From Anagrus nilaparvatae (lineage: Eukaryota > Arthropoda > Insecta > Hymenoptera > Mymaridae): a stretch of 64,000 nucleotides of DNA. Below are positions 15,690-54,914 of this stretch, piece by piece (within the stretch, counting starts at the first letter, position 1; every line of letters begins with the position of its first letter). The notes below the pieces were generated by a model. That model saw only the letters and a list, made by a program, of their open reading frames with translations, did not search any database and had not been told where the DNA came from. Location: positions 66,742,501-66,806,500 of the forward strand of contig JAKSXM010000007.1 of the NCBI GenBank assembly GCA_022575985.1, read 5' to 3'. The position numbers and the translations under genes were made by a program.

Positions 15690-16703
15690 TGCGCCTGCAG
15701 TGTATTAACGATACGGTCCCAATTGATTCTGAAAACTATTTTAAACCAACTCCAATCGAAATAACGCCAGTTTATTAGTTAAGTATTATATCTACATTGG
15801 TACCAACAGACAATGAGCAACCAAGTAACAGCAACAATAAAATTTATAAACTGCCAGATTTCTGGAATGCGTTACTAGAATCTTGCCATTGGGATATTAT
15901 TTATAGACTCCTAACCCCGTATGCTTCCAGCTTCAGTAGAATGCGTTTTCTTAAATAGGAAAAGAACAAACCATACCAACGGTCTTTCTTTTTTTGCACT
16001 TGCTTTGTTTTTTTTATTTCGCAGAGTATGTAGGAAGTATTGTATTAATACAAAATGAGAGAGATTGTGAAAAATACTGATCCACGATACGGATATATTA
16101 TTGCCTCGTACGGCCAATTGTATTTTGTAGGATAAAACTTCAATAGCCATAAAAAGAATTCCCTTAAAAGAAATCAGTTCTTTAAAGAGAAAAGTAAACA
16201 ATTCTCCGGCTGAAATATCAGATTCTGTCCTTATACATGATATACATGTACTTAGAACATCCAATTAAGATTAACCACGATAACATAAAGTCACATCAAA
16301 AAGATAAAGTTCATAACATCAAAAATCTGTTGCTCATTATTTAGTCAATGACTTGAATGTTGAAGAAAAAGCTCAATTAATCAAAGATTTACTAACTAGG
16401 TTGCACAAATAAATATATGTATATTTATCCTTCATAGCAATGTTATCAATAATAAATTATTACAGAAAGTAAAAAATTCAAGTCTAATACATTTAATGTA
16501 TACACATACTTAGCACATCCTATTAAGATTGGCCATGACAATATAAAGTCACATCAAAAAGATACGGAGATATTATCGCCTCGTACGGCCAATTGTATTC
16601 CGCAGGATACAACTTCAATAGCCATAAAAAGAATTTCCTTAAAAAAAATCAATTCTTTAAAGAGAAAAGTAAATAATGCTCCTGCTGAAATATCAGATTC
16701 TGC
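15690..16703 (+). pseudogene. Decayed multi-exon coding remnant, family unknown (left part)
   Basis: Several short stretches translate sensibly on the plus strand between stops. One at about 15707-15778 begins NDTVPIDSEN. One at 15779-15957 contains LPDFWNALLESCHWD. One at 16360-16412 has EEKAQLIKDLLTRLHK and then a stop. One at about 16560-16703 starts DTEILSPRTANC and ends EISDS. The last module also appears at about 16090-16220 and at 24275-24410, so the locus contains duplicated exons. Frames are broken in the first two, hence pseudogene. I do not recognise the protein; a transposon-derived gene is possible. The 7.2-kb element that follows has inserted into one copy of this repeated exon. 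Confidence 0.45.
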
Positions 16704-16888
16704 TGTAACGTCAGGTCCAAATAGTCCTAAATAAAAGGGCTAAAATTGAAATAAATAATTAAAGTTTAGAATTGCTTAATAAAAAGCATGACTTGATAAA
16801 AATACACCAAGCGTAACTAATTTGACACCTGAACAAATATATAAATATATTTGAGAGTTTATCAGCTAAACGGGCGTTGGCCCACGTA
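16704..16888. repeat. Left terminal inverted repeat of the 7.2-kb element
   Basis: Pairs with 23745-23930 at roughly 90 per cent by eye, including 'ttaaagtttagaattgctta' and the following 'acctgaacaaatatata' stretch. Confidence 0.85.
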
Positions 16889-17040
16889 TACGAGACCTTG
16901 ACGCAAAGCTTCCCCCGTAATAAAAATTATTAATAGATTTGGTGACAAGGCACCTTTTCTTATCTCTATATATAGAGGCAAAATCCAAAGGTTCAGTCTT
17001 CTTGTCGTGCCGCCGCTGATTTTAGCTAGGCGGTGCTGCA

Positions 17041-17163
17041 TATGTTACTCTTATAACTGAGGATCGACGTCATCGAGAATACTTTAAGCGCCGTAAATTG
17101 AAACCAAGATCAATCTCTCTTTATCATTGTCACGGATTGCGCCCTGATGATTAATCTAATCTA
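17041..17163 (+). pseudogene. Possible first coding exon of the element's gene
   Basis: A plus-strand frame reads VTLITEDRRHREYFKRRKLK and then SLYHCHGLRPDD before a stop at about 17151. It sits just before the array begins at TTCAAG (17164). It is basic and arginine-rich. No family recognised. An upstream frame beginning near 16866 (KRALAHVYETLTQSF) may belong to the same gene. The link to later exons is inference. Confidence 0.35.
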
Positions 17164-17735
17164 TTCAAGGATTTGACTGGTCCTATTAAGGTTTGTGTGG
17201 ACCCTAATTCATCCGCTGACGCCAAACAAGCTACGTACCACTTGGATAAAACGGCCCGGAGTAAACGTTCTTTTCTTACGGCGTGGGACATGTCCGTGCC
17301 TCCAGATATGGCTGTAATCAAACTTTCTGAGCATAACCGCTGCAGTGATATGTTGCGCTATGCCATGAAGCATACTCCAGATAAAAAAAATTATTTTGTT
17401 TTTTTGTTTTCTGAAGTTTTTTATTAATTTATTGTTTATTTTTATAGGCATAAATGCCTATATGGCCTATGTAGGGGACCCCGGGAGTTCAACTGTACTA
17501 CATATTGAACCCGGACAGTTTTGCTCGATAAACACCCTATTACGGGGGCTTAAAGCGTGGAGAATCATTCCTGCTCCTGCTATGGAAAAATTTATGGCCC
17601 TTTATCACAAGTTACAATTAAAAACCTGCGATTCAGATGACTGTGCTCCTACCTCCTTGTGTAGCATTTGTGGCTGTAGATATTCTGGTGTCCATGCACC
17701 CGTTTTCTTCGCCTCTTCATCAATTGGTAAGTGAG
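17164..17735 (+). pseudogene. Module A plus module B, first copy: unidentified protein segment
   Basis: One open frame covers 17173-17427 (GPIKVCVDPNSS ... KRSFLTAWDMSVPPDMAVIK ... MLRYAMKHTPDKK). An AT-rich intron-like stretch follows and ends in TTTTTATAG at 17448. A second frame then runs GINAYMAYVGDPGSSTV ... HIEPGQFCSINTLLRG ... to the GTAAGT site at 17727. The A frame has no convincing donor before the AT-rich stretch, so whether A and B are spliced together is open. The cluster C-x4-C-x5-C-x2-C-x-C in B could bind metal. No family recognised. Confidence 0.4.
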
Positions 17736-20700
17736 TGTACATATTGAACCCGGACAGTTTTGCTCTATAAACACCCTATTACGGGGGCTTAAAGCGTGGA
17801 GAATCATTCCTGCTCCTGCTATGGAAAAATTTAAGGCCCTTTATCACAAGTTACAATTAAAAACCTGCGATTCAGATGACTGTGCTCCTACCTCCTTGTG
17901 TAGCATTTGTGGCTGTAGATATTCTGGTGCCCATGCACCCGTTTTCTTCGCCTCTTCATCAATTGGTAAGTGAGTCTACATATTGAACCCGGACAGTTTT
18001 GCTCTATAAACACCCTATTACGGGGGCTTAAGGCGTGGAGAATCATTCCTGCTCCTGCTATGGAAAAATTTATGGCCCTTTATCACAAGTTCAAGGATTT
18101 GACTGGTCCTATTAAGGTTTGTGTGGACCCTAATTCATCCGCTGACGCCAAACAAGCTACGTACCACTTGGATAAAACAGCCCGGAGTAAACGTTCTTTT
18201 CTTACGGCGTGGGACATGTCCGTGCCTCCAGATATGGCTGTAATCAAACTTTCTGAGCATAACCGCTGCAGTGATATGTTGCGCTATGCCATGAAGCCTA
18301 CTCCAGATAAAAAAAATTATTTTGTTTTTTTGTTTTCTGAAGTTTTTTATTAATTTATTGTTTATTTTTATAGGCATAAATGCCTATATGGCCTATGTAG
18401 GGGACCCCGGGGGTTCAACTGTACTACATATTGAACCCGGACAGTTTTGCTCTATAAACACCCTATTACGGGGGCTTAAAGCGTGGAGAATCATTCCTGC
18501 TCCTGCTATGGAAAAATTTATGGCCCTTTATCACAAGTTACAATTAAAAACCTGCGATTCAGATGACTGTGCTCCTACCTCCTTGTGTAGCATTTGTGGC
18601 TGTAGATATTCTGGTGCCCATGCACCCGTTTTCTTCGCCTCTTCATCAATTGGTAAGTAAGTGTACATATTGAACCCGGACAGTTTTGCTCTATAAACAC
18701 CCTATTACGGGGGCTTAAAGCGTGGAGAATCATTCCTGCTCCTGCTATGGAAAAATTTATGGCCCTTTATCACAAGTTACAATTAAAAACCTGCGATTCA
18801 GATGACTGTGCTCCTACCTCCTTGTGTAGCATTTGTGGCTGTAGATATTCTGGTGCCCATGCACCCGTTTTCTTCGCCTCTTCATCAATTGGTAAGTGAG
18901 TCTACATATTGAACCCGGACAGTTTTGCTCTATAAACACCCTATTACGGGGGCTTAAGGCGTTGAGAATCATTCCTGCTCCTGCTATGGAAAAATTTATG
19001 GCCCTTTATCACAAGTTCAAGGATTTGACTGGTCCTATTAAGGTTTGTGTGGACCCTAATTCATCCGCTGACGCCAAACAAGCTACGTACCACTTGGATA
19101 AAACAGCCCGGAGTAAACGTTCTTTTCTTACGGCGTGGGACATGTCCGTGCCTCCAGATATGGCTGTAATCAAACTTTCTGAGCATAACCGCTGCAGTGA
19201 TATGTTGCGCTATGCCATGAAGCATACTCCAGATAAAAAAAATTATTTTGTTTTTTTGTTTTCTGAAGTTTTTTATTAATTTATTGTTTATTTTTATAGG
19301 CATAAATGCCTATATGGCCTATGTAGGGGACCCCGGGAGTTCAACTGTACTACATATTGAACCCGGACAGTTTTGCTCGATAAACACCCTATTACGGGGG
19401 CTTAAAGCGTGGAGAATCATTCCTGCTCCTGCTATGGAAAAATTTATGGCCCTTTATCACAAGTTACAATTAAAAACCTGCGATTCAGATGACTGTGCTC
19501 CTACCTCCTTGTGTAGCATTTGTGGCTGTAGATATTCTGGTGTCCATGCACCCGTTTTCTTCGCCTCTTCATCAATTGGTAAGTGAGTGTACATATTGAA
19601 CCCGGACAGTTTTGCTCTATAAACACCCTATTACGGGGGCTTAAAGCGTGGAGAATCATTCCTGCTCCTGCTATGGAAAAATTTATGGCCCTTTATCACA
19701 AGTTACAATTAAAAACCTGCGATTCAGATGACTGTGCTCCTACCTCCTTGTGTAGCATTTGTGGCTGTAGATATTCTGGTGTCCATGCACCCGTTTTCTT
19801 CGCCTCTTCATCAATTGGTAAGTGAGTGTACATATTGAACCCGGACAGTTTTGCTCTATAAACACCCTATTACGGGGGCTTAAAGCGTGGAGAATCATTC
19901 CTGCTCCTGCTATGGAAAAATTTAAGGCCCTTTATCACAAGTTACAATTAAAAACCTGCGATTCAGATGACTGTGCTCCTACCTCCTTGTGTAGCATTTG
20001 TGGCTGTAGATATTCTGGTGCCCATGCACCCGTTTTCTTCGCCTCTTCATCAATTGGTAAGTGAGTCTACATATTGAACCCGGACAGTTTTGCTCTATAA
20101 ACACCCTATTACGGGGGCTTAAGGCGTGGAGAATCATTCCTGCTCCTGCTATGGAAAAATTTATGGCCCTTTATCACAAGTTCAAGGATTTGACTGGTCC
20201 TATTAAGGTTTGTGTGGACCCTAATTCATCCGCTGACGCCAAACAAGCTACGTACCACTTGGATAAAACAGCCCGGAGTAAACGTTCTTTTCTTACGGCG
20301 TGGGACATGTCCGTGCCTCCAGATATGGCTGTAATCAAACTTTCTGAGCATAACCGCTGCAGTGATATGTTGCGCTATGCCATGAAGCCTACTCCAGATA
20401 AAAAAAATTATTTTGTTTTTTTGTTTTCTGAAGTTTTTTATTAATTTATTGTTTATTTTTATAGGCATAAATGCCTATATGGCCTATGTAGGGGACCCCG
20501 GGGGTTCAACTGTACTACATATTGAACCCGGACAGTTTTGCTCTATAAACACCCTATTACGGGGGCTTAAAGCGTGGAGAATCATTCCTGCTCCTGCTAT
20601 GGAAAAATTTATGGCCCTTTATCACAAGTTACAATTAAAAACCTGCGATTCAGATGACTGTGCTCCTACCTCCTTGTGTAGCATTTGTGGCTGTAGATAT

Positions 20701-21807
20701 TCTGGTGCCCATGCACCCGTTTTCTTCGCCTCTTCATCAATTGGTAAGTAAGTGTACATATTGAACCCGGACAGTTTTGCTCTATAAACACCCTATTACG
20801 GGGGCTTAAAGCGTGGAGAATCATTCCTGCTCCTGCTATGGAAAAATTTATGGCCCTTTATCACAAGTTACAATTAAAAACCTGCGATTCAGATGACTGT
20901 GCTCCTACCTCCTTGTGTAGCATTTGTGGCTGTAGATATTCTGGTGCCCATGCACCCGTTTTCTTCGCCTCTTCATCAATTGGTAAGTGAGTCTACATAT
21001 TGAACCCGGACAGTTTTGCTCTATAAACACCCTATTACGGGGGCTTAAGGCGTTGAGAATCATTCCTGCTCCTGCTATGGAAAAATTTATGGCCCTTTAT
21101 CACAAGTTCAAGGATTTGACTGGTCCTATTAAGGTTTGTGTGGACCCTAATTCATCCGCTGACGCCAAACAAGCTACGTACCACTTGGATAAAACAGCCC
21201 GGAGTAAACGTTCTTTTCTTACGGCGTGGGACATGTCCGTGCCTCCAGATATGGCTGTAATCAAACTTTCTGAGCATAACCGCTGCAGTGATATGTTGCG
21301 CTATGCCATGAAGCCTACTCCAGATAAAAAAAATTATTTTGTTTTTTTGTTATCTGAAGTTTTTTATTAATTTATTGTTTATTTTTATAGGCATAAATGC
21401 CTATATGGCCTATGTAGGGGACCCCGGGAGTTCAACTGTACTACATATTGAACCCGGACAGTTTTGCTCTATAAACACCCTATTACGGGGGCTTAAAGCG
21501 TGGAAAATCATTCCTGCTCCTGCTATGGAAAAATTTATGGCCCTTTATCACAAGTTACAATTAAAAACCTGCGATTCAGATGCCTGTGCTCCTACCTCCT
21601 TGTGTAGCATTTGTGGATGTAGATATTCTGGTATCCATGCACCCGTTTTCTTCGCCTCTTCATCAATTGGTAAGTGAGTGTACATATTGAACCCGGACAG
21701 TTTTGCTCTATAAACACCCTATTACGGGGGTGAGTGTAAAGATTATCATTATATTTTTAATCGTATATAAAAAGAATTTTATTAATTTTCTCTTTTTAAA
21801 TTTTTAG

Positions 21808-21895
21808 TTTACCATTTACTGACCCAAATACTGATAAATGGAATGAAAACCGGCTTTTAGCAGCGAGAAATCTTCTGTCTGCAGCTGCTGCATGA
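21808..21895 (+). pseudogene. Terminal-type exon, copy 1
   Basis: A truncated B module ends at CGGGG before GTGAGT (about 21729). The intron runs to TTTTTAG at 21807. Splicing gives TLLRG joined to LPFTDPNTDKWNENRLLAA, then a poly-alanine end and TGA at 21893. This copy has a clean donor, acceptor and stop and so may preserve the original gene end. Confidence 0.5.
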
Positions 21896-22994
21896 CGCAA
21901 TTTACCGTTATTTTTATATATAATAGAATTTTTTATTTAACTACATATTGAACCCGGACAGTTTTGCTCTATAAACACCCTATTACGGGGGCTTAAAGCG
22001 TGGAGAATCATTCCTGCTCCTGCTATGGAAAAATTTATGGCCCTTTATCACAAGTTACAATTAAAAACCTGCGATTCAGATGACTGTGCTCCTACCTCCT
22101 TGTGTAGCATTTGTGGCTGTAGATATTCTGGTGCCCATGCACCCGTTTTCTTCGCCTCTTCATCAATTGGTAAGTGAGTCTACATATTGAACCCGGACAG
22201 TTTTGCTCTATAAACACCCTATTACGGGGGCTTAAGGCGTTGAGAATCATTCCTGCTCCTGCTATGGAAAAATTTATGGCCCTTTATCACAAGTTCAAGG
22301 ATTTGACTGGTCCTATTAAGGTTTGTGTGGACCCTAATTCATCCGCTGACGCCAAACAAGCTACGTACCACTTGGATAAAACAGCCCGGAGTAAACGTTC
22401 TTTTCTTACGGCGTGGGACATGTCCGTGCCTCCAGATATGGCTGTAATCAAACTTTCTGAGCATAACCGCTGCAGTGATATGTTGCGCTATGCCATGAAG
22501 CCTACTCCAGATAAAAAAAATTATTTTGTTTTTTTGTTATCTGAAGTTTTTTATTAATTTATTGTTTATTTTTATAGGCATAAATGCCTATATGGCCTAT
22601 GTAGGGGACCCCGGGAGTTCAACTGTACTACATATTGAACCCGGACAGTTTTGCTCTATAAACACCCTATTACGGGGGCTTAAAGCGTGGAAAATCATTC
22701 CTGCTCCTGCTATGGAAAAATTTATGGCCCTTTATCACAAGTTACAATTAAAAACCTGCGATTCAGATGCCTGTGCTCCTACCTCCTTGTGTAGCATTTG
22801 TGGATGTAGATATTCTGGTATCCATGCACCCGTTTTCTTCGCCTCTTCATCAATTGGTAAGTGAGTGTACATATTGAACCCGGACAGTTTTGCTCTATAA
22901 ACACCCTATTACGGGGGTGAGTGTAAAGATTATCATTATATTTTTAATCGTATATAAAAAGAATTTTATTAATTTTCTCTTTTTAAATTTTTAG

Positions 22995-23082
22995 TTTACC
23001 ATTTACTGACCCAAATACTGATAAATGGAATGAAAACCGGCTTTTAGCAGCGAGAAATCTTCTGTCTGCAGCTGCTGCATGA
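22995..23082 (+). pseudogene. Terminal-type exon, copy 2
   Basis: Identical in layout to the exon at 21808-21895: donor GTGAGT after CGGGG (about 22916), acceptor TTTTTAG at 22994, then the same short C-terminal frame and TGA. The 1187-bp spacing equals the duplicated block that includes the preceding A and B modules. Confidence 0.5.
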
Positions 23083-23492
23083 CGCAATTTACCGTTATTT
23101 TTATATATAATAGAATTTTTTATTTAACTATATCGACCTTTGTTAATGAGCCATTTTTATCTGACCTATTTGACCTGATATTGTTTTATCTATTATCATA
23201 AGTTTATCTAACTAAATTATAATTTATTGTGATAGTTGACAATAGACTTTTAAATACAAACTTAATTCTTTAAATTACATTGTATTAATATTTTTATTTT
23301 TACTGTATCTAGTTTACGCCAGTATTGATTAGAATAAACTTAATTTTGTTATTATCTCTGCACCTGCACATTTATAATTTTTCTATTTTTATTTTCCCAC
23401 TACCTAAAGCATAATTTATTATCTATCCCAACCAACTTCTTATGCCTCCTCAAATTTTATTTCACTTCGTTTTGAGTTTTGAAACTAGACAG

Positions 23493-23772
23493 TTACCCAT
23501 CATCAGGAGAAATGGCACGAGAATTATTTTTTGAGAACCATCCTGGAACTGACATTTTGCGTATTGAGGATGATAATACCATGAACATTGTTGTAAGTAC
23601 CTAGCCTTTGTCGAATTAGCTATAAAATTATTGCTGTTCAATATCTACCTAATATATTTTATTTTCTATTTTTTTTTTTTTTTTTTTTTTTTTTAAGTAG
23701 GAATGGGCTAGGATCAAAGCTTTTTATGATGGTGCGAACCACTTTACGTGGGTTCTGCGTCCGTTTATCTGA
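23493..23772 (+). pseudogene. Last two exons of the element's gene, ending inside the right inverted repeat
   Basis: Exon 23493-23592 follows CTAGACAG and ends before GTAAGT. It translates as YPSSGEMARELFFENHPGTD then ILRIEDDNTMNIV. After a 108-bp intron with a long T-tract and TAG, exon 23701-23772 continues in phase (EWARIKAFYDGANHFTWVLR) to TGA at 23770-23772. The stop lies within the terminal inverted repeat. I recognise no domain. Confidence 0.45.
23669..23694. repeat. Poly-T tract
   Basis: About 26 T in a row directly before AAGTAG; it doubles as a polypyrimidine tract for the last exon of the element. Confidence 0.9.
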
Positions 23773-23930
23773 TAAACTCTCGAATATATTTATATATTTG
23801 TTCAGGTGTCAAATTAGTTACGCTTGGAGTATTTTCACCAAGTCATGCTTTTTATTAAGCAATTCTAAACTTTAATTATTTATTTAAATTTTAACTCTTT
23901 TATTTAGGACTATTTGGACCTAACGTTACA
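23745..23930. repeat. Right terminal inverted repeat of the 7.2-kb element
   Basis: Reverse complement of 16704-16888; overlaps the last 28 bases of the predicted final exon. Confidence 0.85.
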
Positions 23931-24555
23931 CTGCCCTTATACATGATATACATGTATTTAGAACATCCAATTCAGATTGGCCACGACAATATAAAGTCAC
24001 ATCAAAAAGATAAAGTTTAAAACATCAAAAATCTGTTGCTCATTATTTAGTCGATGACTTGAATACTGAAGAAAAAGCCCAATTAATCAAACATTTACTA
24101 ACTAGGTTGCACAAATAAATATATGTATATTTATCCTTCATAGCAATGGTATCAATAATAAATTATTACAGAAAGTAAAAAATTTAAGTCTAATACAATT
24201 AATTTATACACGTGCTTAGAACATCCAATTAAGATTGACCACGACAATATAAAGTCACATCAAAAAGATACGGAAATATTATCGCCTCGTACGGCCAATT
24301 GTATTCCGCAGGATACAACTTCAAAAGCCATTAAAAGAATTCCCTTAAAAAAAATAAGTTCTTTAAAGAGAAAAGTAAACAATGCTCCTGCTGAAATATC
24401 AGATTCTGACCCGGAAAGTAAAAAATTTAAGTCTAATACATTTAATATATACATGTACTTAGAACATCCAATTAAGATTGACCACGACAATATAATGTCA
24501 CATCAAAAAGATAAAGTTCATAACATTGTTGTAAATAGAAGGATCAATAAATAAT
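23931..24555 (+). pseudogene. Decayed multi-exon coding remnant, family unknown (right part)
   Basis: Resumes the target sequence after the 7.2-kb insertion. From an acceptor-like TTATTACAG at 24170, one frame stays open to TAA at 24552-24554, with the repeated module LEHPIKIDHDNI on either side of LSPRTANCIPQDTTSKAIKR and NAPAEISDSDPESKKFKSNT. The module repeats show a ~280-bp tandem exon duplication. Lysine-rich and probably intracellular; no family recognised. Confidence 0.4.
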
Positions 24556-24989
24556 TTAAAATAAATGGATTTTGATTTAATTTATTAAAAATATCAGATA
24601 TATACACCGTCCGATAAATTTAATGTAAGGACGTTCAATCGAGATCATGGTTTTGAACCGCCGCCGACCAGGAGATATGCACCAGTCAGAGATAACCAGT
24701 TATTATAAGATAAATATAATTGATGTTTTGTCAGATACATATAAAAATATGCCTCCAGAAGACAAAGAATATGCAGATAATTACTACCTTTTTCCAATAA
24801 TCGTAAAACGAAGGAAACGGCTAAAAGCTCTTATACTAATCGATGGGAAAGAAAATTTGGACTAGGAATAAGCTTTAGAAAAGCAGCAGGCGCGATAGAT
24901 AACAACGAGTACTTTTTTGGAACTCCTCGCGTTATTACCCAGGGGTAAAAAAGTTACTTTTGGGTAACCAAGCAAAGCAAAATTCAAAT

Positions 24990-25828
24990 ATGGCAGATAG
25001 GCAGGAAGTCACTGAAGCCCAAGCGCGATTAAACGAGGCTCTGGCGCAAATGGAGCTTTTGCGAGCAGAGAATGACAGCCTCAGGGCAGAAAGCGTAAAT
25101 CATCAGTTAGAGACGCTTCGAGCCGAAAATGAGAGGCTTCGCCTTTCTAGGGGGTTGTCAGAGACCTCTGTGGTGCACGGGGGTGGGGCAACACCTAGGG
25201 GGCATAGAGTCTTATTAAAGGATGTAGAGGTGTCCCTACCAAAGTTTAAAGGGGATGACCCAGACAGGCCGGTGGCAGGGCCATGGACAACAAAATAATA
25301 GCGTACGGTTGGTTTCAATTGGAGGGTTATTTTGGGGCGAGCAACGCTCTTGAGGGGGCGGCCAAAAAATGGACCGAAAGTTGCTCTGAAATAAATACGT
25401 GGGATGCCTTAAAGGTGGCTATCCAAATTGAGTTTAAGGCGCGAATGTCTAAGGGCGAGATTCATGAGATAATGGCGGCATGTAGGAGGAATAAAGAGGA
25501 GAGTATCTTAGACTTCTTCCAAGAGATGAAGGTGCTGGGGCGGCAAGCGGATACGGAGGAGCGAAATGTTTTGAAATATATTGTCAGGGAAGTAACTGAC
25601 AACGAGCCAATGCGATTGGCATTATATTCGGCGCAGACTTTCGGCGATCTGCACGAAAAGCGTTACCTGATATCGGAGTCGTTAGCTGCCCCAGGGGCTA
25701 GTCAAAATTGGGGTTCAGGTAGCCAACAAAAGGGCAAAAAAGACTGTCAGCCTAAAGGGCAGCAAAAGAGCTCCAATGATCAGGAGCCCAAATGCTTGTT
25801 TATTGTATTGCAGTATGGGGTATTGTAG
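24990..25828 (+). pseudogene. Gag remnant of a gypsy-like LTR retrotransposon (frameshifted)
   Basis: The first ATG with good context is at 24990 (MADRQEV). A leucine-rich coiled coil (MELLRAENDSLRAE ... LETLRAENERLRL) is followed by SLPKFKGDDPDRPV, a sequence typical of insect gypsy-type Gag. The frame breaks near 25290. A second frame (25283-25828) continues with the Gag core: GWFQLEG, LEGAAKKWTESCSEINTWDA, IEFKARMSKGEIHEIM and DFFQEMKVLGRQAD. The end is lysine/glutamine-rich. No LTRs were identified. GC content is clearly higher than in the neighbourhood, as expected for a fairly recent arrival. Not functional as it stands. Confidence 0.8.
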
Positions 25829-30450: not shown

Positions 30451-31446
30451 TTAAAAATATTCATCATCAAATATTTCCTCTTTAATATCAACATCTTCAA
30501 CCTTAATACTTATATCTGTGTCCACAGATTTTGATAAATCTGTTTTATCTTTTCGGTTTTTATGACTTGGTATTTCTTCTTCAAATATGGGAAAACTTAT
30601 GTAATTTGTTTCCTCATCGTCTGAGACACTAAATTTCTCTTCTTTAACATCAATCAGATTCTCATTTACTATATGTATCTCAGTATCGTCGAGAGATTTA
30701 TTTTTCTGATTACTAGATTTCTGGGATTTAGAATTTTTATTATTAGATTCGCATTTGTAATGTCCTGTTGCAACATAATCTCGGAGATGTTTTGATAAAT
30801 CACCTTTTGAAATAAACTTCTTTTTGCAATTATCACACTCAAATTTTTTTGAGCCTGTATGAATTTTTTCATGTGTTCGAAGATTTGATGTCTGGTTAAA
30901 AGTTTTACCACAAAATTTGCATGCATAGGGCATTTCTCCTGTATGAACACGAAGATGAAAAGTCAAATGATGCTTTTGGATAAATGTCTTTTTACAATAT
31001 TTACATTTAAATTTTCTAATGACTAGATGAATTTTTTCATGACCTCGACGATGACTTGCTTGAATAAAAGTTTTATCACAATAATTACATTTATATGGCC
31101 TTTCTCCAGTATGAATTCGAAGATGCTGTTTAAAACTGAATAATTTAGTAAAATTCTTCTTACAATATTTGCATTCAAGTTCTTTTATTCCCAAATGAGC
31201 TTTTTCATGGTATTGAAGTTCTTGGTTACGTTTAAACGTTTTGCCACAGAAGTTGCATTGGTAGGGTCTTTCTATAGAATGAACCCTAAGATGACTTATT
31301 AAATAACCTTTATTACTAAATCCTTTGCTGCAGTATTCGCAACTTAATTTTTTGGTTGTATGGAGTTTTTTGTGTTTGTCAAAGGCGATTTTGTATTTGT
31401 AGCTTTTTGAGCAAATATCACATATGTACTTTATTTTTTCGGCCAT
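30451..31446 (-). CDS. C2H2 zinc-finger protein, 331 residues (copy 1)
   Basis: Seven canonical C2H2 fingers plus a degenerate eighth fill about residues 6-230 (YICDICSKSYKYK..., YKCNYCDKTFIQASHRRGHE, and so on), many with TGE/K-type linkers. The C-terminal third is acidic/lysine-rich and has three psi-K-x-E sumoylation-type motifs (VKEE, IKVE, IKEE). A nuclear DNA-binding transcription regulator is the family expectation. I start at ATG 31446 (MAEKIKYICDIC), not the longer in-frame start at 31533, because a TTATTTTTACAG acceptor lies 30 bases upstream of this ATG; an upstream noncoding exon is therefore likely. Its paralogue is at 47717-49315. No ZAD or KRAB-like domain is visible. Confidence 0.85.
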   Translation of the reverse strand: MAEKIKYICDICSKSYKYKIAFDKHKKLHTTKKLSCEYCSKGFSNKGYLISHLRVHSIERPYQCNFCGKTFKRNQELQYHEKAHLGIKELECKYCKKNFTKLFSFKQHLRIHTGERPYKCNYCDKTFIQASHRRGHEKIHLVIRKFKCKYCKKTFIQKHHLTFHLRVHTGEMPYACKFCGKTFNQTSNLRTHEKIHTGSKKFECDNCKKKFISKGDLSKHLRDYVATGHYKCESNNKNSKSQKSSNQKNKSLDDTEIHIVNENLIDVKEEKFSVSDDEETNYISFPIFEEEIPSHKNRKDKTDLSKSVDTDISIKVEDVDIKEEIFDDEYF

Positions 31447-32754
31447 CACAAGAGTATATCTCTTGAAATAATGTATCTGTAAAAATAAGTTATTAATGAA
31501 TATAAACTTTGCATTTATTAGAAACGAAAGCATTTTATTTATTAAGTAAGAAAATAAAAAAAGAAAATTATTATCGACCTATTTTGGGTTAAATAAAAAA
31601 GGCTATAATGTAAAGCTTCATAACCCTTTTAAAAATTGTAAGCCATTTTATTTATTCAATAGTTCCTGATTCATGATTTGTGGAAATTTTTTCAACTAAC
31701 TATAATTTATTATTATTATTCAGTTTATTTTTGGCATGACATTTATAATAATATAAAAAAAATGTGTCCACATAGAAAAAGTTTTGATGGATAAAATGTT
31801 AAAAATTTTTGTTTTTTAATAAATGAGTTATCGTTAATTAAAGATTTTGCAATAATTCCCCTATAATCTCAATTTTACTTGCTACTTGAAGTTCAATAAC
31901 TTAAAAATTTGAAAAGTCAGTGAATTTTCATCATAAACTGAAAAATTTTTCCTATTGGCGCAAGAGGAAAAAATCCTCTTGCTGTGAGGAGGAATTAAAG
32001 AGAAGAGAAATTCCTCTTGTGGCTAGAGAATGGTTTTTTTATTGTAACTATCACAAAAACCGATAAAGAATTAAAATTGAATATAAAAACTTAAAGAATA
32101 TTAATATAAGGGTAACATCAATGTACGCATTACAAATTTAATTTAGAAATAATTTACAATTACCTACTTCACAATAACTTTCACATTTATTTTATATATA
32201 AGGAAATTATTTACAAAATTTTCAAGTAAATAATTGTCTAATAATCTTTTTAGAAGAGGTAAGCAATCTTTTGATTTATAAATTGGGAAAATTTTTGTTG
32301 ATTTATCTTAAAAAAATTGAAAAAACATAATTTCATAATTAAAGAATAATAAGCTAAACGAGGAAACTCGGAGTAAACACAAAGAAAATAATTAAAATAA
32401 AAAAATTTTTTTGATAGAAAAAGATAATTTTATTTTTTATTTACCTATAAGTAATTTTCATTAAATTACAAAATTAGGGGTCACTTATAAATTACGTAAT
32501 GCAAAATTTAGTATTTTTGAACCCTCTCCTCCCCTAACATAACGCTTTTGTTGACCCTTCTAACATCTTCTAACATTGACTGTAACACAATGGTTTACCC
32601 CCCTTACCCCTTTCAGCGTTACTCACTTTATCAACGACCCCTTAGTGTCTGTTACGTAACTCTAGCAAATATTATTTAGAAAATTTTTTCTTGAAGACTG
32701 CGGAACTTTTAAAAATTGGTTCCCTTATAATTTGTACCCTACAAAACTAAAATA

Positions 32755-33560
32755 CCCTGCCAACTAGCTGGCACTAAGGTTCCTCAAACAATGAGCTAAA
32801 TACTTCAATATGCCACAGATATCACCGATTACAACCATGCAATAATACATTCATTTCTATTAACTTTTAAAACTTAAAAGAAAATTTATGTATTGAATTC
32901 AACTAAATCTATTTTTTTCAAAATAAAATCTAACGTAATTCATTGAATAATAATTATTCAAGATAGTACTTTCATGGAATTAAATGAAATATTACAACAA
33001 AAAAAGAAAAAATATTGCAGTTTTTTTAATTTATTTGTTTTTTTAATTTTGAGAAAAAAATTTTGGAAAAATTCGGTATCAGATCCAAAAAATTACTATA
33101 AACGAAGTGTCTAAAACTAGTACTCTTATAGAAATAAATTAGGTACTACGTCCAAAAAGAAAAAAAAATTTGTTGTTTTTTGTATTTTTTTATGACAAAA
33201 ATTTTTGGGAAAAAAATTTTCAAAAAATTAAGTATCAGATTCGAGATATAGAGTAAAAACAATACTTTCAAATATAAGTACATTCGTGGAAATAAATGAG
33301 GTATTACATCCAAATTAAAAAAAAAAAGAAAGTACCTCGAGATTTTTTGGTGAAAAAATTTTTGAAAAAAAAATTAGGTCTTAATTGTTTGTGAAATATC
33401 ACCGATTACATACATACACACATATACACATACAAAAATACACACACTTTTTTTAAAAACCGGTGTTTTAGCTTCCTGAGGTCTCAATACGTGCTTATAT
33501 GCCAAAATTCAACAACCAAAATTTGACCCATCACAATGGTTACTCATTGAGGAACCAAAA
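32755..33560 (-). repeat. Dispersed repeat, second member (minus orientation)
   Basis: Begins CTAGCTGGCACTAAGGTTCC, contains the reverse complements of the TCGATATCTCGAATCTGATA core and the AACCGGTG...CACAACC block, a CA-rich tract at 33413-33440, and ends with 'cattgaggaacc'. Same family as 5250-6990 and 61770-62510; absent from the matching place in the second zinc-finger duplicate. Confidence 0.8.
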
Positions 33561-34214
33561 TGAATTTTTCTCCTGTAAGGCGTGTTTAAATATTAAAATA
33601 ATTAGTTCGAATTGTACGGAAAAATTACTATGCAATACGTCTTAGTCCAGTTTTCATTAGCAAAGAAGAACAATATAATATTGCGTTTAGTCCAACTGCA
33701 CTAAGACTTTGAAAATTAAAAGAAAAATTATTCTCAAAAGAAAGATAATAAAATAAAAAAACTACTTCAAAATATGTAAAATTAAACTAAATAATAATAA
33801 AATTTGTAAAAAATTAGTAATAAACAAAATCATTAAAAACGAGAATGATTTTGTTATTTTAAAAATGATCCAAAATTGGTTAATTTAGCTTTGGAGTTGT
33901 TTTCAGCTGTTTTAGGTGATTTCTAAAAATTGTAATTAATGAATCTTATTTAACTTTTTATTATTACCTTTGAATAATAATTCCATTTAAAATTAAGTTT
34001 TAAAATCTAAATAAGTAATCTTTATTTTTAAAAACGTTTTTTTAACTTTTTAGCTGTTTTAAGGCGCTAATAATTAAAAACTCCACTTATAAAAATGCTT
34101 TTTTTTTTAGTAAATTATGGGTAAAATACAAGTAAAAAAAATAAATATATCGTTTATAATTATTTTAATTGATAAAAAAAAATAAATTAATAAGAAGTTA
34201 TTACTCGTTGTAAA

Positions 34215-34542
34215 GGGTCTACTCGGAACCTACACATTTCGAACTTGCACATCTATTTTCTTACACATTTTATTACACGAAAAAAATATTACACATTAAA
34301 TAAATTACCAAAATAAATCTTACACAAGTGTAGGAAAATTAATAATTAAATATTTTATATATTTTTATAATTATCATATTGTTTTACAATTAAAATATAT
34401 AAAATATTTAATTATTAATTTTCCTACACTTGTGTAAGATTTATTTTGGTAATTTATTTAATGTGTAATATTTTTTTCGTGTAATAAAATGTGTAAGAAA
34501 ATAGATATGCAAGATTGAAATGTGTAGGTTCCGAGTAGACCC
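34215..34542. mobile_element. Palindromic MITE (328 bp) with perfect 8-bp target duplication
   Basis: Left GGGTCTACTCGGAACCTACA, right its reverse complement. The arms pair almost over their whole length. GTTGTAAA is duplicated at 34207-34214 and 34543-34550. An 8-bp duplication fits hAT-type mobilisation. The paralogous stretch at about 50630 lacks the element. Confidence 0.9.
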
Positions 34543-36112
34543 GTTGTAAAGTATTAATTTATTTTTACCAACTTTACAACATCTGATAAAAAGTTTTAAA
34601 AATTGGTTTTTTTAAGTATAGCAAAAACGTGATTTTGAGCCTTCCAACTCAAAAAAAACTAAGTATATTGTACACGCTACATTTTTTCTGTTTATCGCTT
34701 TCTCCGTGAATATGATCTAAAGAATCCAAAAAAACGTGTTAGCACATGTGCGATCAATTTTTTTTTCTTCAAAAGATTGATCATTTTAAGCGTAATTCTT
34801 TAATGGATTTTCTCATATTTATTTTAGATGGAAAATACATTACAATATATAAATTTTTTTTAAGTTAGCTATTTATTAGTATTATACCTTTTATAATATC
34901 TTTTTATAGTATCTTAATCTACTAAAATTGGATGATTGTAAAGCGAGTTAAAGATGTCCGAGTTCGAATTTGTCTCCTCATGTTGATTAACGGATCATAC
35001 ATCCTCACACGTAAACATCACACACACACACGTGCATTTTCTAGTTTTTAGCATCTGATACCGGGAATCTTAAAACTTATATATTACATGCACAAAAATA
35101 TAAAAAATTAAAATTTTTACCATTAAATTTCTTTCTGAGGCGTAAAATATATAAAATCTTGCATTCTTGTATCAAATAAGTATGTTTTATATGCACTTTT
35201 ATATCGCTGAATGATGATTGGTTTCATAGTATTAATATATACACTAATAAATTTTTTAATTTGTATTAAAAAGTAATAAAAATAGTTTAAAAATATAGTA
35301 GCATTTAATAATATAAGTTTAGTAATGAAACTAAAAAAAATATAAAAATATTTTATGATACGACTCATGGAGGCTAGAATACGACTATTGAGACCACATG
35401 GTTCTTTTTTTTAGTTCTTTCAATGTGTATGTGTATATGTGTATATAATTTTTTTTTCTATTAAAATAAAATAGATGTAAGGTTTGGGTACTTTTCCATT
35501 CAACGTATATTTTATACAGAAGTTTTCTACATTATCAATTTAAAGTAAATACAACTCCATGTTACCTTTTGTACGAAAGTTTTCTACTTTATCAATTAAA
35601 AATTAAATATAAATTTAAAAAATCGCGCTAAATTATAAAAAAAAAACAAGGCTTCATTATTTCAGGCACGATCATTATATTCAATTATTATAGGCTTTTT
35701 GCCTTGCCCTTTTTTGCATAAGTCAAATTATTAGAAATTAATAAGTTTTTTTTTAGTAAAATTTTTGAAGCATCTTTTCGTTCTTAAGAAATTTATCGAG
35801 GTTGTGTGAATTATTTCTATTTAGAATCCCTTATTTATTATTAAAAGAAAAATCAGAGGAAAAATTTTTTATTAGATATTTAGTTATTAGCTATAAAGTG
35901 GATCTGCTGAAGTAAAGTAAAATATACTCATGGCCTCAAAATAACATAATTGATTCATTGAAACTTTTAAAATGTCACGTCTGCATTCAGATAAATCTAC
36001 GAAAAAATTTACAAAATACATGAAAATATAATAATTCTTTTTTAATCTTCGCTTTAAAATATTAGTTATAAAAATATTAGTTTTATTCTTAATTTCTTAT
36101 CAATCTATTATG

Positions 36113-36560
36113 TATATAAATCTTTAATTTTGTATGTGATGTGTTTGTTTGTCCGTTCGAACGCGATAAACTAGAACATGATAAAAGCTACAGACTTTAC
36201 GGCAAATGCGGCAAAATTTACCGGTAAAAACATAGGTTATTTTTCTTCTCGATTGATAACGACAAAAATTTTTTATGCATTGAAAAAAACTAAATGTCCA
36301 AGAAAAAAACATACAATTTTTAAAAATATTTAAAAAACTAAAAATTAAGAAAAAATTTTACGGTGGAAAAGATTTTGATTCGATTAGGGCATATTATTTA
36401 CGAACCCTCCTACATTTTCAAGTTAATCGGTTCGATCTGTCAAAAGTTACAATAATTTTTCGAAAATTACAAAATTTTAGGACTAATATTGTATATATTT
36501 CTAAATCTTAAAGTACACTAATTATCCGCCTGTGTTCCACTGCCCGTAATTTTTATGATT
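36113..36560 (+). repeat. Dispersed repeat related to 63241-63700
   Basis: Starts TATATAAATCTTTAATTTTG, has a GTTTGTTTGTCCG stretch, 'gataaactagaa', 'tttacggcaaa' and CGATTGATAACGACAAAA, all in the same order at 63243-63420. The later 'cgatctgtcaaaagttacaa' part also matches. Possibly a Helitron-like family (see 63241). Confidence 0.7.
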
Positions 36561-38071
36561 TAATAAATTTTATTAATTTAGAGTGTAAATTGATTAAAAT
36601 ATTGAATTAAAAAGATAAGAAAGTTTTTTACACAAAATTTTAATAGATCAATGTAAAAATTTTATCATGAATTGTATTCAATTTAACAACCATATTTAAT
36701 TTAATTTTAATTAGATCTGTTCTCATATATTGAACATTTCAATATATTGAACAATGTATCAGAACTGATCTGCTCAGTACTGGTCAATAGAGAACATTTC
36801 TAATTAATAGTAAAAATTTTAGTTTCCATCAATTTAGCATTAATTGTTGTGTTGTAATATATAATAATAGCAAACAATGAATTTTTATTAGCTCCCGTAG
36901 GTGATGACAATTAAAATAAAAACCCGTAATAACAATAATTTCATCATGGAAAAATAAATTTTTACATTGTGCAATTTTGTTCAATTTTATTTTTTTACAC
37001 CAAGCAAAATAAAAAAAAAGTTATTTATTTTTAGGCATAAAATTCTTTAAGAATAAATTATGTAGCTTTGGAACAGATTAAAAAGTTATAATTAATAATT
37101 TTTGTTTTAATAATTCAGATATTAGTGTGTTTCTTGTCATAAAAAATAATTCCGGTATATCGATTATCGGATGTCCAAGGCGTTAATAGTAGTTTTTATT
37201 TTGATATAAAAAAAGATCAATAAATAAATAAGAAAATTAAAATATTTAAAAAAAAAGAAATTTAACAGTATAATAATACTAATAATCGATAATTGGTAAA
37301 GTGTCATATCCTGTATATTTTTTTAACCACTAAAAAATATAGTAATTTTTCTACATGAAATAAAACTAAAATAAAACTTGTTATAAAATGACACAAAAAA
37401 TAATTTATTTTTTTATGCTAATAGTCAGGTCTGTAAGGCTTATGTAAAAAAAAGCAAAATTTGTAAGTACGACAACAATAAGTAAGCAACATTTTCCTTT
37501 GCAAAGTTAGTGAAATCTATTCAGTAACATATTAAGAATATTGTCTATATCAAATAAAGTTAAACAAATCACCCCAATTTTTCGTCTCATTAAGCCAAAA
37601 AATTAATTTTATCTTTTTTTTAATTTTGGCATGTCCTAGTAGGTAATTTAGGTCGCTAAATCCAAATATGGGGTCAGAAATTTTTTCTGAGGAATTTAAA
37701 AACATTATTTTCTAAAAATACCATTTTTTTTTCAAACTATTTTTTCAATTTTTAATTTGTAGTTACTTTGGACCAATTTATATCTAGTAAAAGTATATGT
37801 AGTAAAAAATTAATTGTTTGTCGGGTGTTACGTTATTTGCATAATTTTTGCACTTCAAATAAAACATTTATCAAAGAAAATTAGAACAAATATAAATGTA
37901 TCATTTTCTTTTAAAAATCTAGAATTATTTATAATCAAAAAAATAATAAAATACCCAAAAATCCTTTATAATCTTCTCCAGTCTTGCATTACTGTACCCG
38001 GAAAAAAGTTATTTATTTATTATACACGTTCTTAAAAAATATAATAAATATTTAATTTATAAATATAGGTT
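36561..38071. other. AT-rich intergenic DNA, no gene seen
   Basis: No coding, RNA or repeat boundary is evident apart from a small palindrome near 36735-36765 (atattgaacatttcaatatat). Confidence 0.5.
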
Positions 38072-38400
38072 TGTAAGGTTGAAAATAAGGGTGATACACC
38101 CCTAAAAATTAATTTTTGACCACAGATTGAGTTTCAGCAGTCCAAAATATCTACTGGAATGGATAAAAAATTAAAAGAAAATGTTTTTTAAAAAAATGAT
38201 ATTTTAACGTTTTTAAGGGTGAAAGTAAGTGTGATATATCCTTCAAAATTAGTATTTGACTTCAGATTTAGATTCAGCAGCCAAAAGCACCTACTAGGGA
38301 GTATAACAATAGAAAAAATATAAGATTAAAAAAAAACTAATTTTTAGGGGTTGAAATTGTGAAAATAAGGTTGCTACATCCCTAAAAAATAAATTATTTT
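38072..38400. repeat. Degenerate tandem repeat (~135 bp, about 2.5 copies)
   Basis: Each copy opens with 'gttgaaaataagggtgatac'-like text, then 'cccctaaaaatta' and 'gattcagcag'. Copies start near 38078, 38215 and 38345. Confidence 0.55.
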
Positions 38401-38557
38401 TTTTTTTGGTTCAAAATATTATCAAAAGAAAATTTTCTTTTAAATATTTAGAAAAAAAAATTTTTTTTAGGTTATGTTCAGTTCTTTTTGCTACCGACAA
38501 TTTCTGTCTCATTGCCATTAAATGCAATTGAAAAATAAAATTAAAAAAAAAATGCGC

Positions 38558-38596
38558 CTAGACAGGGACTTGAACCCTCGACCCTGGACCCAGAAA
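38558..38596 (-). pseudogene. tRNA-Lys fragment (T arm and acceptor)
   Basis: Minus strand: GGGTTCAAGTCCCTGTCTAG, the 3' part of a tRNA-Lys, next to an A-run as at the intact gene; the remainder is lost. Confidence 0.6.
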
Positions 38597-38762
38597 AACG
38601 ACAAAAATCTTTATATGTGCTCTCCTGAAAAACTTAAATTTTTGTGTTACGCGATTTTTGAGATTGCGCGGTAGAATATGAGGCCCCTATAAAAATGATA
38701 GCGATTTCTATTGTGATCAAATTAATCAAATTAAGAAGCAAACATTTACTAAAAAATAAAAT

Positions 38763-38784
38763 TAAAAAAAAAAAAAAAAAAAAT
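38763..38784 (-). terminator. Pol III terminator (T-run) of the tRNA-Lys gene
   Basis: In the minus sense, about 18 T follow two bases after the tRNA 3' end. Confidence 0.7.
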
Positions 38785-38785
38785 A

Positions 38786-38858
38786 CGCCCAAACAGGGAC
38801 TTGAACCCTGGACCCTCAGATTAAAAGTCTGATGCTCTACCGACTGAGCTATCTAGGC
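38786..38858 (-). tRNA. tRNA-Lys (anticodon TTT)
   Basis: A complete cloverleaf on the minus strand, 73 nt including the discriminator: acceptor GCCTAGA with TTTGGGC (two G-T pairs), D arm GCTC/GAGC, anticodon arm TCAGA-CTTTTAA-TCTGA, variable loop GGGTC, T arm CAGGG-TTCAAGT-CCCTG. No intron; CCA is not encoded, as usual in eukaryotes. Partial copies of the same gene with the same flanks are at 38558, 58005 and 60315, so it sits in a duplicated segment. Confidence 0.93.
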
Positions 38859-40640
38859 AGCTGGGCATCGGAGCTCTATTTACGTCTTTTATACTTAATT
38901 TTTAATTTTAGCTATAGTTTATTTACTTAAATATACAAATAATTTTTAATATATATATTTTTATTAAACTAGGGGGCCAGCCCCCTGCGCGCTGAAGTGC
39001 GTCAACCCCCTACAAAATCATATTTCATATTTTATCCCAGTAAAACTAGCTCAATTCAATAATAAAAACAGTTATACAGTAAGATGTAGATTGCAACAGA
39101 GCTGGGATACTGTGACACGCTGTTATCCGTATATACGGCGTACGGTAAACGGGTACTAGATGTAATCAGCCGTATATACGGCAAACTGCATACGGTAGCC
39201 GTATAAATTAGCCAATGAATACGGCAAATTTCAAACGGATCCCGTATATACTTCAGCCGTATGAAAATCCATACGGGAAAAGTCAATACGGGAGCCGTAC
39301 AGAATATGCCTTATTAATGGACTATTTTAAACGGGTCCCGTATTGACTTTTTCCGTATGAAAATCCGTACGGCAAAATCCAATACGGGAACCGTACAAAA
39401 TATGCCGTATGAATGGACCAATTTATACGGCTCCCGTATTGACTTTTGCCGTATGAAAATCCATACGGCAAAATCCAATACGCTAGCCGTATTAAATAGT
39501 CTATTAATACGGCATATTACCTACGGCTCCCGTATTTATTTATGCTGTATGAAAAACCCTACGACAAAAATCAGTACAAAATCACCCGAAAATCACGTAT
39601 TTGTACGGCATAAGAATATACGGCCCCATATTTGTCTCACACGGGCCCGTATGCATATAGGACCTGGGTATTTTCATAATGCCCACGGGTCCGTATGCGA
39701 ATGAGACTTGGGTGTTTTCATAATGCCCACGGAACCGTACACAGTATGAAAATACCCAAGTCCTATACGCATAAGGACCCGTATGCATATAGGACCTGGG
39801 TATTCTCATATTGCTCACGGACCCGTCTCACATGTATACTGACCCGTGGGAATTATGAAAATACTCTCTCCTATACGAATACGGGTCCGTGGGCATTATA
39901 TGAAAATACCCAGGTCCTATATGCATACGGGTCCGTATGCGTATGAGACTTGGATTTTTCATAGTACTGACGGGTCAGTGGGCAGTATGCATTCAAACTT
40001 TAACATACTACCAACTAATCCGTATACTTATAAAACCAAAGTATGGACAGACTGTGCACGGATCATTATACTGCTTGGCCGTATATACGGCTGTTTTCCG
40101 TGCCCAAAATGCCGTGCACGCCCAACTCTGGATTGCAAATAATGAACTTTTTCCATAATTTTAATAAACCATTATTATTTTTATTTTCAAAATTTATCTA
40201 AAAAAAATGTATAATATTGCAAATATTGCATACTGTCAGAACCCTTTTCATCCCTCAAAGTAAATTTTTTTTTGTCCTGGACGGAGAAATCAAGAACGAA
40301 ATTTTACAATAGGATGACAAAATACTCGATTTCATATACTGTGTTGCATTATAATAAATTAAAAAATTAACATTTAAAATTGTCTTACAAATTCTTGTAC
40401 AACGTGCCGCTAACATTACATAGCAACAATAAATTGACCAATTAAATAAAATCGATGACGAAATTTATAGAAGATTTTATAATAAAATGAGAAAATTATT
40501 GTATTTCTTATTATTTACGTATACGTATTTTTTAATATGTTTTTTATTATAATTATAAATACACAAAATTTTATTAATAATTAAGTATTTAAAAAAATTA
40601 ATAAACGCGCGAGAGTATATAACAGAGAACTTTTTGTATT
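38859..40640. repeat. Duplicated tRNA-associated segment, copy 1
   Basis: Flank 38942-39096, continuing at 40131-40330 after the hAT insertion, matches 55478-55760 and 60462-60800: GGGGG...CCCCC hairpin with 'gcgcgctgaagtgcg', 'cctacaaaatcatatt', 'cagtaaaactagctcaattc' and 'tttccataattttaataaac'. The part at 40395-40510 (acgtgccgct ... aatcgatgac) matches 56195-56310. Confidence 0.8.
39097..40130. mobile_element. Non-autonomous hAT-type element, copy 1 (1034 bp)
   Basis: Ends CAGAGCTGGG and CCCAACTCTG are inverted repeats. GATTGCAA is duplicated exactly at 39089-39096 and 40131-40138. The homologous stretch at 60595-60615 has the same flanks with no insertion. The interior is almost wholly built from short palindromic CCGTAT/ATACGG motifs in ~96-bp and ~55-bp near-tandem units. 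The short frames inside (39357-40158, both strands) repeat because the DNA repeats; no transposase. Confidence 0.9.
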
Positions 40641-51299: not shown

Positions 51300-51860
51300 A
51301 AAAACTTTAAATTGCAAAAATCAGTCGAAAGATGGCCGCAATAAAACCTTTGAATTTTTACGTTTTAGCGTAAAAGGTATTCATTTTAATTTTGCTGGTA
51401 TTGGGGTTATTCCTCGGCCGATTTTTGCAATTCAAATTGCACATTAATCAGATTTTAAAGTAGAATATGATTTGAGGCAAAAATAACATTTTTACAAAGA
51501 TTTGCAAAAATGAAAAAAAAAATTCCGAAGAATTTAGAAATAAAGAAATTTTAATAGACATCATACTGTGAGAGGTGAAAAAGACTAAAAAAAAAATAAT
51601 AAGAATTATTTTTTATTGTTGTACTTTTTTCCGCGGGGTGCCTCAAAATTTTCTTTTGTTCATTTAATCTTTAAAATTTTTTTTGCTTTAAAAAACTTAG
51701 TATACTTAAAAAACTGATTAATGTGCAGTTTGAATTGAGAAAATTGGCCAAAAAATAACCCTGATATCAGCAAAATAAAAATTAATACCTATTTTTACTT
51801 TATGCTCTATTGAAGCCAATTATTAGCCGATTTTTGCGATTCAAAGTTCTTTGTCTTCAG
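51300..51860. mobile_element. Inverted-repeat element with ~155-bp arms
   Basis: 51305-51465 (AATTGCAAAAATCAGTCGAA ... GCACATTAATCAGATTTTAA) pairs in reverse with 51705-51860. It lies in the part of the zinc-finger duplication unique to copy 2. A frame beyond it (51841-52095, minus) shows nothing recognisable. Confidence 0.65.
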
Positions 51861-51869
51861 GTGAATCAA

Positions 51870-53690: not shown

Positions 53691-53696
53691 ATTAGC

Positions 53697-54515: not shown

Positions 54516-54666
54516 TAAGTTTACACATATTGGTTACATATGCATTTAAAATGTGTACTACGTTATACAATATATCCACATGGAGCGTAGTCCGAGCGCG
54601 GAACTAGCTATTATAGCCATAGCTGCAAGAATTAACAAATATTATGTGCACATAATTTAGTGCATG

Positions 54667-54914
54667 CACACTAAACCAAAAAGAATTTTTTGTTACCCAG
54701 AAAAGAATTAATGTTTATTTAATTCTTTGGAGAGGAATCCTTTTGAGGTTAATTCTTTTAAAAAAAATTATTTGTGTTTTACTTCTGTTCAAAAGTAATT
54801 AAATTGAAAATAATTTGTTTTGAAAGAATTAACTTCATAATAGTTCCTCTCCAAAGAATTAAATAAACATTAATTCTATTCTGAGTAACAAAAAATTCTT
54901 TTAGGTTTAGTGTG
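54667..54914. mobile_element. Palindromic MITE (~250 bp)
   Basis: CACACTAAACCAAAAAGAAT pairs with the reverse of ATTCTTTTAGGTTTAGTGTG; arms of ~110 bp include 'gaattaatgtttatttaatt' and 'ctttggagaggaa'. The minus-strand frame across it is a palindrome artefact. Confidence 0.75.

Follow-up and report, generated by a model that had tools for sequence, protein, structure and literature searches.

A two-U3 insertion with an array of JmjC-gene fragments in Anagrus nilaparvatae, probably an aberrant reverse transcript of a Ty3/Gypsy-type element

Results

The element entered the window as a unit

We analyzed a 64,000-nucleotide stretch of the genome of the mymarid wasp Anagrus nilaparvatae (assembly GCA_022575985.1, contig JAKSXM010000007.1), hereafter the window, which corresponds to C62:66742501-66806500 in the 488.7 Mb and 393 contigs searched. 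At positions 16,704 to 23,930 the window holds an element with inverted ends, between which two exon-like modules, A and B, recur in a tandem array. An earlier sequence-only reading had likened it to Ginger-type elements and taken it for a transposon that amplifies the exons of its own, unrecognized cargo gene.

The inverted ends were as described: 16704-16889 and 23745-23930, the latter read in reverse complement, agree at 172 of 186 positions (92%) with one gap (BLASTN, E 3e-77), and CTGC lies immediately on either side. The probability of a random 4-bp identity at the flanks is 0.006, and that of CTGC 0.0013. The flanking DNA consists of two copies of one repeat (16225-16702 and 23931-24408, 93.5% identical). 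When the flanks were joined with a single CTGC kept, they aligned without a gap over 357 bp (92.7% identity) to a third copy of this repeat at 16086-16442, which has CTGT at the insertion point. Because the joined flanks match an unoccupied copy without a break and CTGC is present on both sides, these data show that the element inserted as a unit and produced a 4-bp target-site duplication (TSD). The earlier view of a single mobile-element-like unit with inverted ends, a 4-bp TSD and an amplified exon array was right.

Both ends are U3 starts of a resident LTR family

Each arm of the element matches a long terminal repeat (LTR) inward from LTR position 1, and both ends start with TGTAACG. The reference for this family is a pair of direct repeats on contig C1 (L044:133-781 and L043:5007-5655), which are 99.7% identical over 649 bp, span TGTAACGTC...GACGTAACA, are flanked by the TSD CAAC and have a polypurine tract before the 3' LTR. 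The left arm is 84-92% identical to LTRs at L002, L004, L005, L006 and L007 and has a TATA-like box, CTATATATAGAGG, at 16966 (LTR position 263). In a tree of 31 U3 ends the two window arms are sisters (support 94/89). Together these comparisons show that the apparent terminal inverted repeats (TIRs) are LTR U3 starts, with U3 rather than U5 outermost on both sides; two direct LTRs, with U3 and U5 outermost, are not what the window element has.

The length of the TSD is also that of the family. Among nine further direct LTR pairs, including the C342 pair whose LTR end was set by hand, eight have a 4-bp TSD and the ninth lacks a detectable LTR end, and 4-bp TSDs likewise flank solo LTRs at L005 (GTAA) and L046 (CTCC). 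Solo LTRs, large retrotransposon derivatives (LARD) and terminal-repeat retrotransposons in miniature (TRIM) are non-autonomous remnants of LTR families that carry the family TSD, with U3 outermost on one side and U5 on the opposite side. The window element is likewise non-autonomous with the family TSD, but differs from them by U3 at both ends.

The predicted parent family carries an envelope gene and an antisense JmjC gene

The earlier reading had suggested a search of the same genome for full-length relatives with an integrase, and a relative with an integrase core was found on contig C171. This copy has reverse transcriptase (best match Ty3, E 1e-82), RNase H and an integrase core, a gag-like frame whose zinc-knuckle match falls below threshold, and a frame for a Monjiviricetes-type fusion glycoprotein (E 9e-182). 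The search with the glycoprotein returned six relatives, and the three named ones are in Hymenoptera. We counted the C171 and C1 proviruses as one insertion, as they share 1.5 kb at 98.5% identity, including about 0.13 kb of flank. In both, a 112-bp tandem satellite lies between the 5' end of the JmjC gene described below and the 3' LTR (L039 7867-10000, L042 1-2957, L043 2484-3847), and it is far longer in C171. Further sequence of the family lies at C1:9228836-9258055 and in L043, L044, L045, L067, L070 and L071.

A search of the genome with module A gave 111 matches, of which 88 lie outside the window, the best of these (89%) within a 445-amino-acid frame. The protein that had gone unrecognized is identifiable through such frames: four of five related frames match the Pfam JmjC domain (PF02373, E 1e-15 to 2e-14), whereas the Pfam scan gave no JmjC match for the fifth, the upstream frame of the more distant L038. 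One of the frames matches KDM6B in the PDB (E 3e-4), with HIE against HQE and the distal histidine aligned too, and a C2H2 finger comes after it. Module B is the exon preceding the JmjC exon: in L045 it ends with CCAG before the donor GTAAGA, and the JmjC exon begins after TTTTATAG.

The HxE...H triad is kept in all eight related JmjC exons, one slice of which contains a stop. The ratio of nonsynonymous to synonymous substitutions (dN/dS) was 0.07-0.28 in the 15 of 28 pairs of these exons with computable dS, the other 13 being saturated; dS was below 1 in two pairs only (0.10 and 0.28). From the retained triad and these ratios, the JmjC/zinc-finger gene looks conserved by selection, and the window array would be its debris. 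The relatives share the JmjC domain and the triad with JmjC histone demethylases, whereas the array holds only half the domain, and its parent is an element-borne gene with a C2H2 tail. The structure prediction for the JmjC relative P0001 had a mean predicted local distance difference test score of 40 and was not used.

We then asked where the gene lies relative to the LTRs. Among the matches listed, 29 direct LTR pairs were available (23 from the first U3 pattern and six from a second U3 family). Ten of them enclose a JmjC match found with module A, in all ten antisense to the LTRs, and the other 19, many of them short, enclose none. The distance from JmjC to the 3' LTR is 2.2-3.5 kb in eight of the ten; it is 11.7 kb in C171, with the long satellite between, and C113 has a partial JmjC match 19.1 kb from the 3' LTR. 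In six of seven fetched neighborhoods JmjC stands alongside ORF4, a second frame on the envelope side (22-28% identity in two neighborhoods), and four of the seven have a polypurine tract and LTR start; L066 has neither these nor ORF4. At E 0.002, the similarity of ORF4 to Vpu in Pfam is below the cut-off, and we do not believe it.

Judged by these predicted proteins, the parent is a Ty3/Gypsy-type family whose envelope is of the Monjiviricetes class and which carries a spliced JmjC/zinc-finger gene in antisense. It shares TG...CA ends, the polypurine tract and the 4-bp TSD with Ty3/Gypsy (Metaviridae) elements with a captured envelope, whereas the gag, pol and env of the parent are all missing from the window copy, whose two ends are both U3. 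The antisense JmjC gene of its relatives sets the family apart from captured-envelope LTR elements such as Anakin. In the part of the source available, Anakin of mosquitoes, with its chuvirus-type envelope, is given as a capture by Pao, and no clear capture of such a glycoprotein by Gypsy is reported (PMC10084718). In the open-licence literature we found no description of a JmjC gene within an LTR element, which does not in itself show that none is in print, and of 51 pattern-matching stretches in IMG/VR none was confirmed as a JmjC relative.

The array is predicted to be gene debris

A recount bore out the 19 starts of A and six of B and the 926/1165/1187-bp blocks reported earlier. Twelve A copies are full, five end after about 116 bp fused to B, and two end after about 50 bp fused to GTGAGTGTAAAG. 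The B starts are spaced by 926, 926, 1165, 926 and 1187 bp, and differences among the full A copies amount to 6 of 232 sites at most. Every B copy had been said to keep an open frame and a donor. The open frames are real, although they are fragments of the parent gene, whereas the donor-like GTAAGTGAGT sits at the end of A and not of B (two of the 12 full A copies have GTAAGTAAGT instead). The donor position of B itself reads CCAGATAAAA in all six window copies, with AT in place of GT, compared with CCAGGTAAGA in L045 and L043. The first B copy has no acceptor of its own, because the LTR joins B downstream of the acceptor point.

The proposal that the exons of a cargo gene in a true DNA transposon form a modular repeat protein was hardly credible in view of this structure. 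Open frames of 121-127 amino acids do recur in the array, which would suit such a protein. However, the 239-bp period shifts the frame; all 12 full A copies have an in-frame stop at the same position (TGA in ten, TAA in two); the B donor is lost; and splicing from A to A would shift the frame and then run into stops. The repeats are thus neither in a single frame nor matched in intron phase. Module A of the window also retains HIE without the distal metal-binding histidine, because the stretch from FFASSS to the last IG(K) is deleted, and longer frames of the parent gene are found elsewhere in the genome. Within the element, open frames of at least 120 amino acids are JmjC pieces only, with no transposase among them, in line with the earlier remark that no integrase is visible inside. 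Because of the frame-shifting period, the stops, the lost donor and the splice phase, neither read-through nor A-to-A splicing of the array can yield a modular repeat protein, and we interpret it as debris of the JmjC gene. A modular protein or Ginger cargo gene was rejected on frame, splice phase, the missing metal ligand and the TSD.

Nor does the array look like a self-amplifying family: all genome matches to module A of at least 90% identity lie inside the window (best outside, 89%), and it looks like a single locus. Its steps can be ordered by their divergence, namely a 239-bp duplication (4/239 differences), 926-bp steps (8-10/926), a 2091-bp step (8/2141) and an 1187-bp step (1/1191). 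Over their first 160 columns, before the joint, the arms have 8 differences, and compared with this the array is less diverged; if the arms were identical when inserted, the array is therefore younger than the insertion, and it probably grew afterwards in place. An assembly artifact made from one A-B unit is quite improbable: the array is known from the assembly, but its copies differ in distinct patterns (for example at sites 29, 61, 64, 97, 142, 176, 192, 193 and 235) and its blocks have three different lengths.

A second two-U3 insertion argues against chance pairing, and its differences argue against a TIR family

The U3 start pattern has 116 matches in the genome (7 with the reversed pattern as control). 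Among the 100 of these that were listed, 25 neighboring pairs less than 40 kb apart, some of which overlap or duplicate one another, comprise 23 direct, two inward and no outward pairs. For a different U3 family with 29 matches (control 4) we read all six pairs as direct. A further candidate, C337:5290746/5300006, was dropped as an inverted pair because its left LTR lacks a TG end.

The second inward pair, C218:494235-495255, is 1,021 bp long and has the TSD AATC, and its arms show no difference in 300 positions. It consists of LTR 1-300 followed, in reverse complement, by a complete LTR with its trailing AGTTT. The same AGTTT follows the LTR in all five fetched 5' LTRs with an end found (L040 and L044 being one insertion), and by our reading of the sequence it likely stands directly before the primer-binding site. 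Nested genomic insertions explain it poorly, whereas it would be natural for a joined strong-stop product. The U3 subfamily, the interior and the joint all differ between C218 and the window element; neither was therefore copied from the other, and C218 is shown to be a second, independent U3-U3 case.

Two alternatives bear on these data. A pair of ordinary LTR insertions facing opposite ways, with the DNA between them deleted or rearranged and CTGC matching by chance, is an unlikely source of the window element. The flanks are repeats in which insertions might cluster, and by eye the inner joints resemble deletions at short similarity. Such a history leaves unexplained why the joined flanks are gapless against the unoccupied copy, calls for a match of probability 0.006 and for like luck at C218, and sits poorly with the sister arms in the window, the identical arms in C218, the absence of outward pairs among the 25 (of the matches listed) and the cDNA-like AGTTT retained in C218.

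The other alternative, a non-autonomous TIR transposon family in which U3-U3 elements are re-mobilized by a Gypsy integrase or Ginger-like transposase, appears improbable. That two U3-U3 elements exist is in its favor, and the TGTAA ends, 4-bp TSD and size fit what the available part of the Ginger description gives (PMC2836005). Against it, the two cases are unlike in U3 subfamily, interior and joint, the inward pairs number just two of 25 (100 listed of 116 matches), an internal transposase is absent, and neither CTGC nor AATC is one of the TSDs CCGG and CCGT.

Annotated features and neighboring sequence

The features of the element and its flanks are collected in Table 1. A second small exon pair lies on the JmjC strand (MARELFFENHPG... 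then EWARIKAHFDGANPFTWVL...), and by eye window 23512-23745 resembles L045 3944-4310. The flank repeat (16086-16702 and 23931-24526) contains a 130-amino-acid open frame at 24162-24551 with the internal repeat EHPIKIDHDNI.SHQKD, one unit of which was split by the insertion. Gag-like open-frame pieces seen by eye at 24900-25800 are probably from another retroelement adjoining the insertion. Elsewhere in the window, 30733-40130 and 48599-57698 form a segmental duplication of about 9 kb, whose longest pieces are 75-83% identical and which by eye includes a zinc-finger-like repeat region.

Table 1. Positions of the element's parts and of its flanking repeats in the window
Feature	Position	Strand	Evidence or match
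Paralogous unoccupied site: flank-repeat copy through insertion point	16086..16442	.	Joined-flank alignment
TSD, left copy, CTGC	16700..16703	.	Equals 23931-23934
Left arm, LTR 1-326 (U3 with TATA-like box, then probable R start)	16704..17029	+	LTR matches
First and longest B copy; JmjC-gene exon preceding the catalytic one	17032..17380	+	L045 from 2034, 86%
Array of B, A and truncated A (19 A and 6 B starts)	17164..22917	+	
First A copy: JmjC exon with HxE half of metal site, FFASSS-to-IG(K) deletion, donor GTGAGT kept	17448..17730	+	
JmjC-gene 3' region	22951..23745	+	73% to L045 3404-4201; 72% to L039
Last-exon homologue	22995-23081	+	Within JmjC-gene 3' region
Small second exon pair, by eye	23512-23592 and 23701-23745	+	Within JmjC-gene 3' region
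Right arm, LTR 1-186 inverted, outer end again U3	23745..23930	-	Arm alignment, tree
TSD, right copy, CTGC	23931..23934	.	Sequence
Flank repeat, right copy	23931..24526	.	93.5% to 16225-16702

Discussion

In retroviral biology, plus-strand DNA starts from the polypurine tract with position 1 of U3, and integrases ordinarily join one U3 and one U5 end. We consider it probable, at roughly three chances in four, that the window element arose when an aberrant reverse transcript of an envelope-bearing Ty3/Gypsy-type element with an antisense JmjC gene became integrated, and that its array multiplied later in the chromosome. Reverse transcription would have yielded two DNA segments, each with a U3 terminus defined by the polypurine tract, and template switching, snap-back or end joining may have linked them tail to tail. 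The product would be a linear DNA that begins and ends with U3 and has lost its interior, comprising LTR 1-326, a JmjC piece and LTR 186-1 inverted. The integrase of the family would have taken U3 and U3 in place of U3 and U5, with the usual 4-bp duplication; the LTR terminates in TGTAACGTC and, inverted, TGTTACGTC, and because these are similar both ends would be nearly equal for the enzyme. The JmjC exon fragments would then have been multiplied in the chromosome by successive unequal exchange or slippage.

Several observations weigh against this account. The later growth of the array is weakly dated, because the differences are small, the oldest array step (4/239) being too close to the arms (8/160), and because gene conversion could disguise an older array as a young one; the array's copy number, moreover, depends on the assembly. 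The sister support of 94/89 is under the level starred by the tree program. With L005 and L002 as reference, the first 160 arm columns contain six changes private to the right arm and two private to the left, and the right arm could therefore derive from a different LTR copy; an earlier count of 18:2 had been inflated largely by misaligned last columns, and the 6:2 stands. Finally, nothing at the inner joints of the window element corresponds to the AGTTT scar in C218.

The resemblance to Ginger elements deserves separate consideration. According to the accessible part of their description, Ginger1 elements have TIRs of about 40-270 bp, TGTNR termini, the TSD CCGG or CCGT/ACGG and a size of 2.6-7 kb, and their autonomous copies encode a Gypsy-integrase-like transposase (PMC2836005). 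The window element is like Ginger1 and Ginger2 in TIR length (186 bp, 92%), the TGTAA end, the 4-bp TSD and size, but it lacks a transposase, its TSD CTGC (AATC in C218) is neither CCGG nor CCGT, and its ends are instead the U3 starts of a resident LTR family. The TGTNR ends and 4-bp TSD on which the comparison with Ginger was based are present, while membership itself fails on the TSD and the transposase. To link such ends with integrases of the Gypsy type was well guessed; they are the U3 of a Ty3/Gypsy-type family.

The same source, in the part available, calls the route from LTR retrotransposon to DNA transposon unclear and offers LTRs in opposite orientation as one possibility (PMC2836005). 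Two independent two-U3 insertions carry the family's normal 4-bp duplication, which suggests, at the level of sequence, that inverted-LTR molecules can complete germ-line integration. Among open-licence titles and abstract starts we found no paper on integrated inverted-LTR elements. The two loci illustrate the LTR-to-TIR step that the Ginger authors left unclear and make it testable. A broader claim, to which we give even odds, is that a natural Gypsy-type integrase accepts two-U3 cDNA, that an LTR element can become a TIR element in a single aberrant reverse-transcription event, and that the window element and C218 are caught intermediates of the Ginger1 route. The array carries a warning of its own, that tidy open frames and donor sites in tandem arrays may be debris.

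In the parent family a pol of Ty3 type occurs together with an envelope of the mononegavirus class and an apparently conserved JmjC gene in antisense; as a speculation, this gene may counter chromatin silencing. If the broader claim is true, such intermediates come from a retroelement lineage that bears its own antisense JmjC chromatin gene.

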